Assembly: GCA_000827205.1 (NCBI GenBank)
Contig: KN832554.1
Coordinates: 1,734,345-1,798,344 of the forward strand
Length of the DNA stretch: 64,000 bases
From: Plicaturopsis crispa FD-325 SS-3
Lineage: Eukaryota; Basidiomycota; Agaricomycetes; Amylocorticiales; Amylocorticiaceae
Direction: 5' to 3'
Both the position numbers and the translations under genes were made by a program. Of this stretch, positions 12,806-16,045 are shown piece after piece. Position 1 is the first letter of the stretch. The number at the start of each line of letters is the position of its first letter. The notes under the pieces were generated by a model. That model saw only the letters and a program-made list of their open reading frames with translations, made no database searches and was not told the origin of the DNA.

Positions 12806-14305
12806 CTAGAAGTCTTCGTCAAGGGAGCTGGGAGAGATAGCGTGAGTAAAGCGAAGTGAGGAAATCGAGGACGAGAGAGGACGTACAACATCTTGCTCGC
12901 GGTCTCCGACTTGCCAGTCGGCGTACTCGAGTGGTTGATGTTGGCTTTCGAGTAGTCCGACACGCGCTTCTCGAAAAAGTTGGTCTTGCCCTGGAGCGAG
13001 ATCATGTCCATGAAGTCGAAGGGGTTCGTCGAATGGTAGTGCTTCTCGTTGCCGAGCGACACAAGAAGACGGTCAGCGACAAACTCGATGTACTGACGCA
13101 TGAGCTTCGCGTTCATGCCAATGAGAGCACATGGTAGCGCATCTGCAGAGGCTATCAGAGGTTGTTCTTTATACAACCGGATAGCTACTCACCGGTGAGG
13201 AACTCCTGCTCGATCTCCACTGCCTCCATGATGATTCGCTTGACGGTGTCTGGGTGCGCGCGACGCTTGAGGTGGCTGAAGAGGAGACACGCGAAGTCGG
13301 TGTGCATGCCCTCGTCGCGGCTGATGAGCTCGTTGGAGAACGTGAGCCCAGGCATCAGGCCGCGCTTCTTCATCCAGAAGATGGACGCGAACGAGCCGGA
13401 GAAGAAGATACCCTCGACGGCGGCGAAAGCAACGAGACGCTCGGCGAAAGTCGAGCGCTTGTCCGAGATCCACCGCAGGGCCCAGTCAGCCTTGCGCTTG
13501 ACGCAGGGGATGGTCTCGACGGCATCGAAGAGGTACTCGCGCTGGACAGGGTCTTTAATATAGGTGTCGATGAGGAGCGAGTAGGTCTCGGAGTGGATGT
13601 TCTCCATCATGATCTGGAACCCGTAGAAGCACCGCGCCTCCGCTGCCTGAACCTCTCCGGAAAAGCGCTCGACAAGGTTCTCGTTGACAATGCCGTCCGA
13701 CGCGGCGAAGAAGGCGAGCACATGAGAGATGAAGTGGCGTTCGTTGTCGTTCAATTTGTGTGTCCAGTCGTGGAGGTCCTTGGAGAGATCCATCTCCTCC
13801 GCGGTCCAGAACGAAGCCTCAGCCTTCTTGTACATCTGCCAAATCTGTGATACGAGAAGGTTAGATACGGAAGAGTAGTGAAGGTCGGTGACACTAACCT
13901 CGTGATACTGGATGGGGAACAGGACGAATCGGCGCTTGGACTCTTTGAGGAGGGGTTCCTCGCCTGTCGAGAATATAAGCGACCATGATACGCGACGAAG
14001 GACGCGATAGACTTACTCTCAGGTAGGTCGACTTCACCGACAAACTTTTTGCGAAGCTCCTCCAGGTCGTCCTCATCACCGTTCAGGGTCTCAGGAGACT
14101 CGGAACGCTGCTCGTCGTCGATGAGGGAGAACTGGGGCTTTTTGAGAGGCTTGGTGGGTGTCGTAAGGCTGAAGGCTTCGAGCGCGGCGGCAGCCTAATA
14201 AGCAAACCAATTAGTGACGCGACGCGACACAGACCTACGCGCGCTACACACCTTTTTGCTAGGGGTAGGTGCGGGGGAAGCGACACGGACAGGAGTAGTA
14301 GACAT
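12806..14305 (-). CDS. Ribonucleotide reductase small subunit R2
   Basis: Complete class I R2 of about 408 residues. R2 makes the tyrosyl radical used by the large subunit to reduce NDPs to dNDPs. Visible landmarks: N-terminal [18 protein letters not shown] and a Ser/Thr-rich extension before [20 protein letters not shown] (Asp ligand); [14 protein letters not shown], holding Glu and His ligands and the radical Tyr; [13 protein letters not shown] (Glu); [16 protein letters not shown] (Glu and His); and the R1-binding tail FSLDEDF. All di-iron ligands are present, so this is not a degenerate Rnr4-type subunit. Introns split it at the same places as the neighbouring paralog, including before the DALP segment and just before the last residues. 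A TATAAAA box lies about 90 bp upstream of the ATG. Confidence 0.97.
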
Positions 14306-14721
14306 ATCGAACAAATATAGAGGGGAAATGGGAGAGCGGGAGCGGGAGATGGTGGACGTTCGGAATGAAGAGGAAAAGTTGGCGAACGGTTGACTTTTAT
14401 AATTGCAGCGGAGTTGACCCTGTTTGGCGAGTTCAACCAGTTCGCGTACCGTGTTGCTTGGCCAGGTTTGCGCACTGGGATTACCGCACGTGATCTAGGT
14501 GGCCGGATCTCGCCCGATTCGGCCGAATCCGAATCCTTTCATCACCGATCTTTGCCGCGGCTTGACCATCATCGCCCGGCTCGGCTGCATTCAAACGCGC
14601 CGCTCGCGATTCAGTCCTTCTTGTTCCGCTCCACCATCTCGGACTCGTTATTTATTCAAAATATCGTTTTATTCTGCCATTCGCAGAGCCCCGTCTGAGC
14701 CTGATAGTGCACACCCTTCAA
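14306..14721. promoter_or_regulatory. Shared bidirectional promoter region of the two R2 genes
   Basis: This 416-bp gap separates the divergent start codons of the two R2 paralogs and must contain both promoters and 5' UTRs. I see a minus-oriented TATAAAA (14395-14401), a GCACGTGA E-box-like site near 14485, an AACGCG core (14594-14599) that resembles the MBF element of fungal S-phase genes, and a TTTGGCGA near 14423 close to the E2F/MBF consensus. S-phase control of R2 genes by MBF/E2F-type factors is known in other fungi; its use here is inference. Confidence 0.6.
14395..14401 (-). promoter_or_regulatory. TATA box for the minus-strand R2 gene
   Basis: TATAAAA reads on the minus strand about 90 bp before the ATG at 14305, a usual distance for a basidiomycete TATA element. 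Confidence 0.5.
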
Positions 14722-16045
14722 ATGGAGTTCGGAACGCAAGATGTCAAGACGCCACAACACTTTACCGACATAGATGAAGAATTTGACCCCTCACGACGGC
14801 GCTTTGTTGGCGAGGTGGATCTGCCCGAGCGTCAGTCGCATCCTCTCTGTCGGCTTGATGAGCACTGACTCTTTGTTAGACATGGAGCCGTTGCTCAAAG
14901 AATCGAAAAGACGCTTTGTCTTGTTTCCGATACAATATCACGAAGTGAGTGGCTTTGCGAAACACAGTCTTGTGTTAACTAACGAACTGTGTGCAAAAGA
15001 TTTGGAACATGTACAAGAAAGCCGAGGCGTCTTTCTGGACAGCCGAGGAAATCGACCTGTCACACGATCTACCCGACTGGCAATACAAACTCAATGACAA
15101 CGAACGACATTTCATATCGCATATTCTCGCCTTTTTCGCCGCCTCTGACGGAATCGTGAATGAGAACCTCGTTGAACGCTTCTCAAGTGAGGTCCAGGCG
15201 GCCGAAGCGCGATGTTTCTATGGATTTCAGATAATGATGGAAAACGTCCACTCGGAAACCTACTCCCTGCTCATCGACGCGTACATCAAAGACCCAAGGC
15301 AGCGCGACTATCTATTCGATGCCGTCGAGACGATTCCCTGTGTGAAGCGCAAGTCAGACTGGGCACTCCGCTGGATATCCGACGAGAGGTCGACATTTGC
15401 CGAACGGCTCGTTGCGTTTGCGGCGGTCGAGGGCATATTTTTCTCTGGATCGTTCGCGTCGATATTCTGGCTGAAGAAGAGGGGCTTGATGCCGGGGCTC
15501 ACGTACTCCAATGAGCTCATCAGCCGCGACGAGGGCATGCACACCGATTTCGCATGCCTGCTATTTGCGCACTTGAAGCGACGCCCGCATCCTGATACCG
15601 TGCGCCGAATAATAACAGACGCGGTAGTAATCGAGCAAGATTTCCTGACAGGTGAGTTCGCTCGATGACTTGCGCGGGGGTCGTACTAATGAATGTTTAT
15701 CATTCAGATGCACTCCCTGTGAATCTTATAGGGATGAACGTGCAGTCTATGTGTCAATACATTGAATTCGTCGCCGACCGACTTCTAGTCTCGCTAGGCA
15801 ACGACAAAGTCTATGGATCGGCAAACCCTTTCGACTTCATGGACATGATCTCCCTCCAGGGAAAGACCAATTTCTTCGAGAAACGCGTATCGGAATACTC
15901 CAAAGCAAACATGAACCACACGTCATCACTCGAACACCCAGCAGAGTCGAATAGTAGGGTTTTGTAAGTTTTAGTCTTTTTCCTCAGCCACCGTTCCATT
16001 GCTCATCGATGTCCTTTCTGCAGTACCCTCGACGAGTACTTTTGA
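14722..16045 (+). CDS. Second ribonucleotide reductase small subunit (R2 paralog)
   Basis: Complete R2 of about 367 residues, head to head with the R2 gene ending at 12806. It keeps every metal and radical landmark: [38 protein letters not shown] and [16 protein letters not shown]. It differs at the ends: its N-terminus ([14 protein letters not shown] to FVGEVDLPE) is about 40 residues shorter, and the R1-binding tail is FTLDEYF rather than FSLDEDF. Intron positions match the sister gene (after VDLPE, after QYHE, before DALP and before the tail), showing that both come from one duplicated gene. By analogy with animal p53R2 it may supply dNTPs outside S phase or after DNA damage, but that is inference. 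Nothing suggests decay. Confidence 0.96.

Follow-up and report, generated by a model that had tools for sequence, protein, structure and literature searches.

A head-to-head pair of ribonucleotide reductase R2 genes in Plicaturopsis crispa, and a Helitron clade that appears to carry an R2 gene of its own

Ribonucleotide reductase makes deoxynucleoside triphosphates (dNTPs) with a large subunit, R1, and a small subunit, R2. In the basidiomycete Plicaturopsis crispa FD-325 SS-3, a window of 64,000 nucleotides (assembly GCA_000827205.1, contig KN832554.1, positions 1,734,345 to 1,798,344) contains two intact class Ia R2 genes, here called A and B, which stand head to head on one contig at window positions 12806-16045. 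Further R2 genes are found elsewhere in the genome, several of them beside the replication genes (Rep) of Helitron transposons. The reading favoured here, which we regard as probable though well short of certain, is that A and B are a competent pair from an old inverted duplication and that one Helitron clade has its own captured R2, kept under constraint. The transposon-linked copies matter more than the A/B pair, as a full-length, intron-bearing enzyme gene has survived whole at three loci, each time next to an intact Rep gene.

Two competent R2 genes from one duplication

Gene models were built with a home-made spliced aligner from genomic sequence alone, and both genes were assigned from the spliced model, Pfam match, iron ligands and GC content at third codon positions (GC3). 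Gene A, on the reverse strand (12806-14305), encodes 408 residues in six exons (14305-14252, 14194-14017, 13963-13899, 13844-13193, 13142-12887 and 12827-12809, with a TAG stop at 12808-12806). Gene B, on the forward strand (14722-16045), encodes 367 residues in five exons (14722-14830, 14880-14944, 15000-15651, 15708-15963 and 16024-16042, with a TGA stop at 16043-16045). An initial sequence-only reading of the window had described two R2 paralogs diverging from a 416-bp gap, and the models agree: 416 bp lie between the two ATGs (14306-14721), forming the sole upstream region of both genes.

B matches the full Pfam profile Ribonuc_red_sm (PF00268, E 4.7e-119, profile positions 1-281 of 281), and the long exon of A, tested alone, matches it at E 1.7e-96. 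Among solved structures, yeast Rnr2 matches A best (E 8.8e-161). Alignment with mouse R2, human p53R2 and yeast Rnr2 confirmed that each gene keeps all six iron ligands and the radical tyrosine, as the sequence-only reading had claimed. The radical-path tryptophan and aspartate and the C-terminal tyrosine are likewise present in both; ligand and radical-path positions were assigned by mouse R2 residue numbers. According to the spliced models, the last exon of A (12809-12827, reverse strand) encodes the tail FSLDEDF, of the R1-binding type, and that of B (16024-16042, forward strand) encodes FTLDEYF; by homology, both tails presumably dock on R1. A degenerate partner of the yeast type, with its iron ligands lost, was considered for B and rejected because A and B keep all six.

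Four introns are common to A and B in alignment column and phase (77/1, 99/0, 320/1 and 406/2), which supports the earlier suggestion of one inverted duplication, and A carries one extra intron at its 5' end, in the N-terminal region. The two proteins are 81% identical over 362 aligned residues and 87% identical over a 321-column core, with 73.5% DNA identity over aligned codons. Because 77% of synonymous sites differ (pS 0.77, saturated) as against 13% of nonsynonymous sites (pN 0.13), the duplication appears to be old and both copies constrained. In a 57-row R2 tree, which included 29 viral rows and 17 of 80 bacterial loci hand-picked for spread, A and B are sisters (support 99/99). An assembly duplicate or a pair of near-identical alleles, a possibility that the initial reading had itself raised, is practically out of the question and was rejected: the two genes lie head to head on opposite strands of a single contig, and the saturated pS and the DNA and core protein identities are far from those of near-identical copies. 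Judged by their sequences, then, A and B are two catalytically competent class Ia R2 genes from an old inverted duplication.

The two genes differ at their N termini. The N-terminal region of A, encoded by exons 1 and 2 (14017-14305, reverse strand), aligns with ETPSKAAADALSDL of yeast Rnr2 and is mostly missing in B; the N-terminal TPSKKAAAAL of A aligns with TPSKAAADAL of yeast Rnr2, and B is without this motif. GC3 is 0.797 in A and 0.632 in B, compared with 0.785 in R1 (four pieces) and 0.768 in histones (eight pieces). With its yeast-like N-terminal region and R1-like GC3, A is most likely the S-phase housekeeping R2. B is most likely an auxiliary R2, like RNR22 in Cryptococcus or p53R2 in animals, because the N-terminal motif is missing and GC3 is lower; its short N terminus and competent core are those of the auxiliary p53R2 or RNR22 type. 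A point against these assignments is that GC3 is a weak proxy for expression.

A division of labour between A and B is what these differences suggest. That they are instead merely redundant or dosage copies, transcribed from one bidirectional promoter without any division of labour, seems rather unlikely, though it deserves to be taken seriously. The 416-bp upstream region is common to both genes and all catalytic residues are present in both, as redundancy would have it, but B has little of the N-terminal region seen in A, the tails differ (FTLDEYF versus FSLDEDF), GC3 is 0.63 versus 0.80, and both copies have been maintained through saturation of synonymous sites. The intergenic region contains no full MluI cell-cycle box (MCB, ACGCGT) and no X-box consensus; the shorter ACGCG occurs twice in its 416 bp, or 4.8 per kb, compared with 3.6 per kb across the window. 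A common cell-cycle box in the gap was rejected, as ACGCGT is absent.

Further R2 genes in the genome

The window's own genome (33.2 Mb in 49 contigs, labelled C1, C2 and so on) was searched for relatives, with only the best candidates scored, so that locus counts are lower bounds. PF00268 gave at least 19 exon matches in at least eight loci, namely A, B and six more: two on C2 (C2a and C2b), one on C10, two on C18 (C18a and C18b) and one on C24. R1 was found at one locus, on C11 (PF02867), and A and B would both have to share it.

The R2 genes at C2a, C2b and C10 are full length and keep all six ligands, the radical tyrosine and the tail tyrosine. Their tails (FSVHEDF, FSTTEDF and FSTAEDF, respectively) are of the type FSxxEDF, they begin only a few residues upstream of the core with no long N-terminal region, and their GC3 is 0.50-0.57. 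The C2b model is complete only with a GC-AG intron at the shared position; otherwise eight residues are missing. Two ACGCGT (MCB-like) sites occur in the 406 bp before the C2a gene, compared with 0.45 per kb in the window; none is present in the 356-387 bp upstream of the C2b, C10 and C18a genes, so that no common rule emerges.

The remaining copies are damaged to different degrees. C18a keeps all ligands but is interrupted, with its 3' exons about 4.3 kb further on; at C18:626.5-631.1 kb these exons follow in the same orientation beyond about 4.3 kb of other sequence, and the decayed C18b comes after them. C18b has lost four ligands, while C24 has lost three ligands and the radical-path aspartate, and neither has a recognisable tail. 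Both models run for about 280 codons without a stop. When a 230-codon piece was evolved neutrally in 300 simulated runs, stops were absent from 1.7% of runs at 0.2 changes per site and from no run at 0.5; C18b and C24 are therefore either not long dead or serving another role.

Linkage of R2 to one Helitron clade

At least eight loci with the Helitron_like_N domain (PF14214) were found in the genome. At four of the six extra R2 loci (C2a, C2b, C10 and C18a), the R2 gene stands head to head with a Helitron Rep/helicase open reading frame (ORF), with 2816, 1499, 1562 and 1111 bp, respectively, between the R2 start and the Rep ORF. Under random placement, four or more of six within 5 kb would have P of about 5e-10, a value that is too optimistic given that transposons cluster. 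All four Rep ORFs contain PF14214 (E about 4e-33 to 6e-34) and DUF6570, and a PIF1 helicase domain (PF05970, E 2.4e-19) was identified in the C2b Rep ORF, the one whose searched stretch reaches that far. The HUH motif QG[KR]..LHLH is present at all eight Rep loci. Beside the full-length R2 genes at C2a, C2b and C10, the Rep ORFs are open over 2024, 2066 and 2111 residues. Both Rep and R2 are broken at C18, where Rep has 1144 residues and lies near the contig end, and at C24, where Rep is split.

In a Rep tree, the four R2-bearing Reps and that of C24 form one clade (97/95) with 53-61% identity. The other Reps, on C3, C44 and C7, are only 26-32% identical to this clade, and the PF00268 genome search found no R2 match on their contigs. 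R2 evolves more slowly than Rep at the linked loci: at saturated pS, pN is 0.21-0.24 between R2 pairs and 0.26-0.33 between Rep pairs. The Rep and R2 trees also agree in separating C18 and C2b from C2a and C10 (support 89/84 for Rep and 69/77 for R2). A search for relatives of the Helitron Reps in viral contigs returned 54 stretches that fit the pattern, none of which was confirmed.

On C3 (804313-806325), a Rep from another Helitron clade is paired head to head with a 671-residue ORF, which occupies the position that R2 has in the R2-bearing clade; this ORF has weak coiled-coil Pfam matches only.

All four R2-Rep pairs have a third conserved gene nearby (C2:1547157-1548137, C2:2024871-2025762, C10:370741-371636 and C18:625080-625939). 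At C2a it is a 327-residue ORF located 1.0 kb beyond R2, and its closest relatives are exactly those at the other three R2-Rep loci on C18, C2b and C10 (seven exon matches, E at most 1.7e-18). Of ten weaker matches, from 5.6e-16, several lie no more than about 25 kb from the same elements and three lie at other sites (two on C1 and one on C36); the C1 relatives cluster near the contig start. No credible match to this gene was found in Pfam, among Protein Data Bank (PDB) sequences or among PDB folds. Its AlphaFold model has a mean predicted local distance difference test (pLDDT) score of 55.8, and a Foldseek search gave a best E of 0.018, with none at 0.001, in a list rich in terminal nucleotidyltransferases and SpoT, a weak signal. 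Together with the motif SGS...SDLDIYV, this fold match suggests that the product possibly has a nucleotidyltransferase-like core.

Origin of the extra R2 genes

In the 57-row tree, for which C18b and C24 were trimmed of their doubtful C-terminal ends, the six extra copies form one clade (100/100), which falls on the side of the opisthokont R2s and is separated (100/97) from the bacteria and viruses sampled. The C2a and C10 genes have five introns each, three of which match A and B in column and phase (99/0, 320/1 and 406/2), with two of their own (180/2 and 362/0). The ancestor of the extra copies therefore seems to have been an intron-bearing gene because of these three common introns, as would be expected of capture at the DNA level.

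Horizontal transfer, with a bacterium or a large DNA virus as donor, would offer another source, and viral R2s do resemble the extra copies in lacking a long N terminus; the best viral hits are 53-60% similar to the C10 copy, close to the 61% of A. However, forcing the viral rows and the C copies into one clade made the tree worse by 17.8 log units (approximately unbiased test, p-AU 0.029), in topology tests restricted to seven of the 29 viral rows and to C2a, C2b, C10 and C18a, and the three introns match A and B in both place and phase. A viral or bacterial origin was rejected on these two grounds and is very improbable.

Interpretation and proposed mechanism

The linkage of R2 to Rep could have arisen without any benefit to the transposon. 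The extra R2s might be ordinary host paralogs in transposon-rich islands, where Rep and R2 were moved jointly by Helitron activity or by segmental duplication. We consider this account unlikely, though by no means negligible. It draws on the other repeats that the islands hold, such as one at 1.2-2.8 kb past the C10 R2 that recurs on C8, twice on C2 and on C24; on the failure to find element ends at C2a, C2b and C10, and on the C18b and C24 genes, which stand outside the head-to-head arrangement. What it explains poorly is that one head-to-head layout recurs four times, twice on a single contig at a distance of 475 kb and twice on other contigs, with the genes saturated at synonymous sites and a third gene always near. 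Nor would it predict the lack of an R2 match on the contigs that hold the other three Reps. A dispersed repeat beyond the C10 R2, at C10:365261-366897, is found on C8 and near the C2a, C2b and C24 Reps, with 66-71% likeness in the longer matches.

Several results weigh against the capture of R2 by a Helitron clade. The agreement between the Rep and R2 trees comes down to one split of three possible, with the rest differing or weak. At C24 the head-to-head layout is missing, with R2 about 12-15 kb from Rep, and the C18b R2 is 9.5 kb off. At C2a, C2b and C10, the search for element ends found no CTRR-hairpin end, no inverted repeat longer than 12 bp and no shared flank, and the tested flanks beyond the C2b and C10 R2s have no recent second copy, only shorter matches. 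As to the source of the captured gene, forcing A, B and the four C copies together costs 0.01 log units (p-AU 0.45) and is neither favoured nor rejected, and the best tree joins yeast Rnr2 to A, B and the four C copies at the weak support of 17/0.

Under the favoured reading, a Helitron lineage would have captured a genomic R2 once, introns included, and kept it under constraint together with the transposon. The R2 gene would be transcribed away from the Rep/helicase gene, and its short product would form the tyrosyl radical and dock its FSxxEDF tail on host R1; both activities are proposed because ligands, radical path and tail have been retained amid drift at most other residues. Host R2 is normally cell-cycle bound. 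dNTPs would rise where host R2 is scarce, allowing the second strand of the element to be made, and the missing long N-terminal region would be consistent with a subunit outside host control. We observe directly the gene structures, the ligands, the introns in common, the head-to-head linkage and the constraint, whereas capture, mobility as one unit, R1 binding, dNTP supply and the division of labour between A and B are what we infer. More tentatively, and as a possibility that we do not yet lean towards, an autonomous Helitron lineage with its own working R2 and the third protein may take over the sole host R1 for second-strand dNTPs outside S phase, as large DNA viruses do. A further point against such a role is the small dNTP demand of a 10-15 kb element; the gene may be kept for a reason other than supply.

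If correct, this would add the first known transposable element with a component of the dNTP-producing enzyme. It would also be an uncommon instance of a Helitron maintaining a full-length host gene in working order while synonymous sites became saturated. dNTP supply would then become a testable limit on rolling-circle transposition. In addition, an extra R2 in a fungal annotation would need to be checked for a nearby Rep before being read as expansion of a host gene family.

Outside the R2 loci, Peroxidase_ext (PF11895), a domain of fungal lignin-type peroxidases, gave at least 11 exon matches on C12, C1, C3, C5 and C11, suggesting a lignin-degrading Agaricomycete.

Comparison with known systems

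Helitrons with additional genes have been described in Agaricomycetes. For example, the HELPO1 Helitrons of Pleurotus ostreatus combine RepHel with the captured genes capA-capF within the element, according to the available text (PMC4289320), and in this respect they resemble the elements described here. In HELPO1, however, the captured genes lie downstream of RepHel and are of unknown function or viral type, while here R2 lies upstream and is divergent. The words "reductase" and "ribonucle" do not occur in the main text of that paper (PMC4289320). Fungal transposons with TET/JBP genes are a second parallel: DNA transposons, Helitrons included, keep a host-type enzyme as an accessory, though it is another enzyme and is thought, in the portion of the paper drawn on here, to counter DNA methylation (PMC12730594). 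Because such a host-type enzyme is already known in fungal transposons, an R2 in a Helitron would be a variation on a known theme (PMC12730594). In plants, a Helitron has been reported as inserted at a probable RNR1 gene, as far as the accessible part of that study goes (PMC8495827). No description of an R2 gene in a Helitron was found in the literature available in whole or in part, with subscription papers and transposon databases outside the scope of the search.

Large DNA viruses also encode R2s of eukaryotic type with a short N terminus and an acidic-aromatic tail, and are parasites as well. Their R2s differ in forming a separate group in the tree and in being single ORFs at the loci used.

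In animals, RRM2 and p53R2 are both competent and both work with one R1. The sequence-only reading had compared A and B with this pair, and the comparison stands in one respect visible in the sequences: the N-terminal region is long in A and shorter in B, where TPSKKAAAAL is missing, just as one member of the animal pair is long and the other short in the PDB chain sequences. It does not extend to descent. Mouse R2 and human p53R2 are sisters (100/99), as are A and B (99/99), and because each pair groups with itself, the animal and fungal pairs are separate duplications among the sequences sampled.

Yeast Rnr2 and Rnr4 likewise represent two small-subunit genes in a fungus. The contrast drawn with them in the sequence-only reading holds, as Rnr4 is without iron-binding residues, according to the Discussion of one paper and the relevant text of another (PMC9431586; PMC3824934), while B keeps them all. 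The decayed C18b and C24 copies, which lack four and three ligands, come closer to Rnr4 in this respect, but they also lack a recognisable R1 tail.

A close parallel to A and B is found in another basidiomycete. The same reading had presented two competent R2s as a distinct fungal solution, a claim that is not supported, since Cryptococcus neoformans provides a precedent: in the accessible text, it has RNR1 and two small subunits, of which RNR21 is essential and RNR22 dispensable; RNR22 keeps the conserved residues and, when over-expressed, rescues the loss of RNR21 (PMC9431586). The Discussion of the same paper credits Candida albicans with RNR21 and RNR22 too (PMC9431586), and at least two differing R2 sequences are reported for most eukaryotic taxa sampled in a second study, again as judged from part of its text (PMC3824934). 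The available text on Cryptococcus mentions no transposon-linked R2 (PMC9431586), which sets that system apart from the one described here. In both basidiomycetes, one R1 is accompanied by two small subunits that each have the catalytic residues. Two competent R2s in a basidiomycete are thus of an already known kind, with A and B as a second example, and their compact head-to-head layout would let a division of labour be tested.

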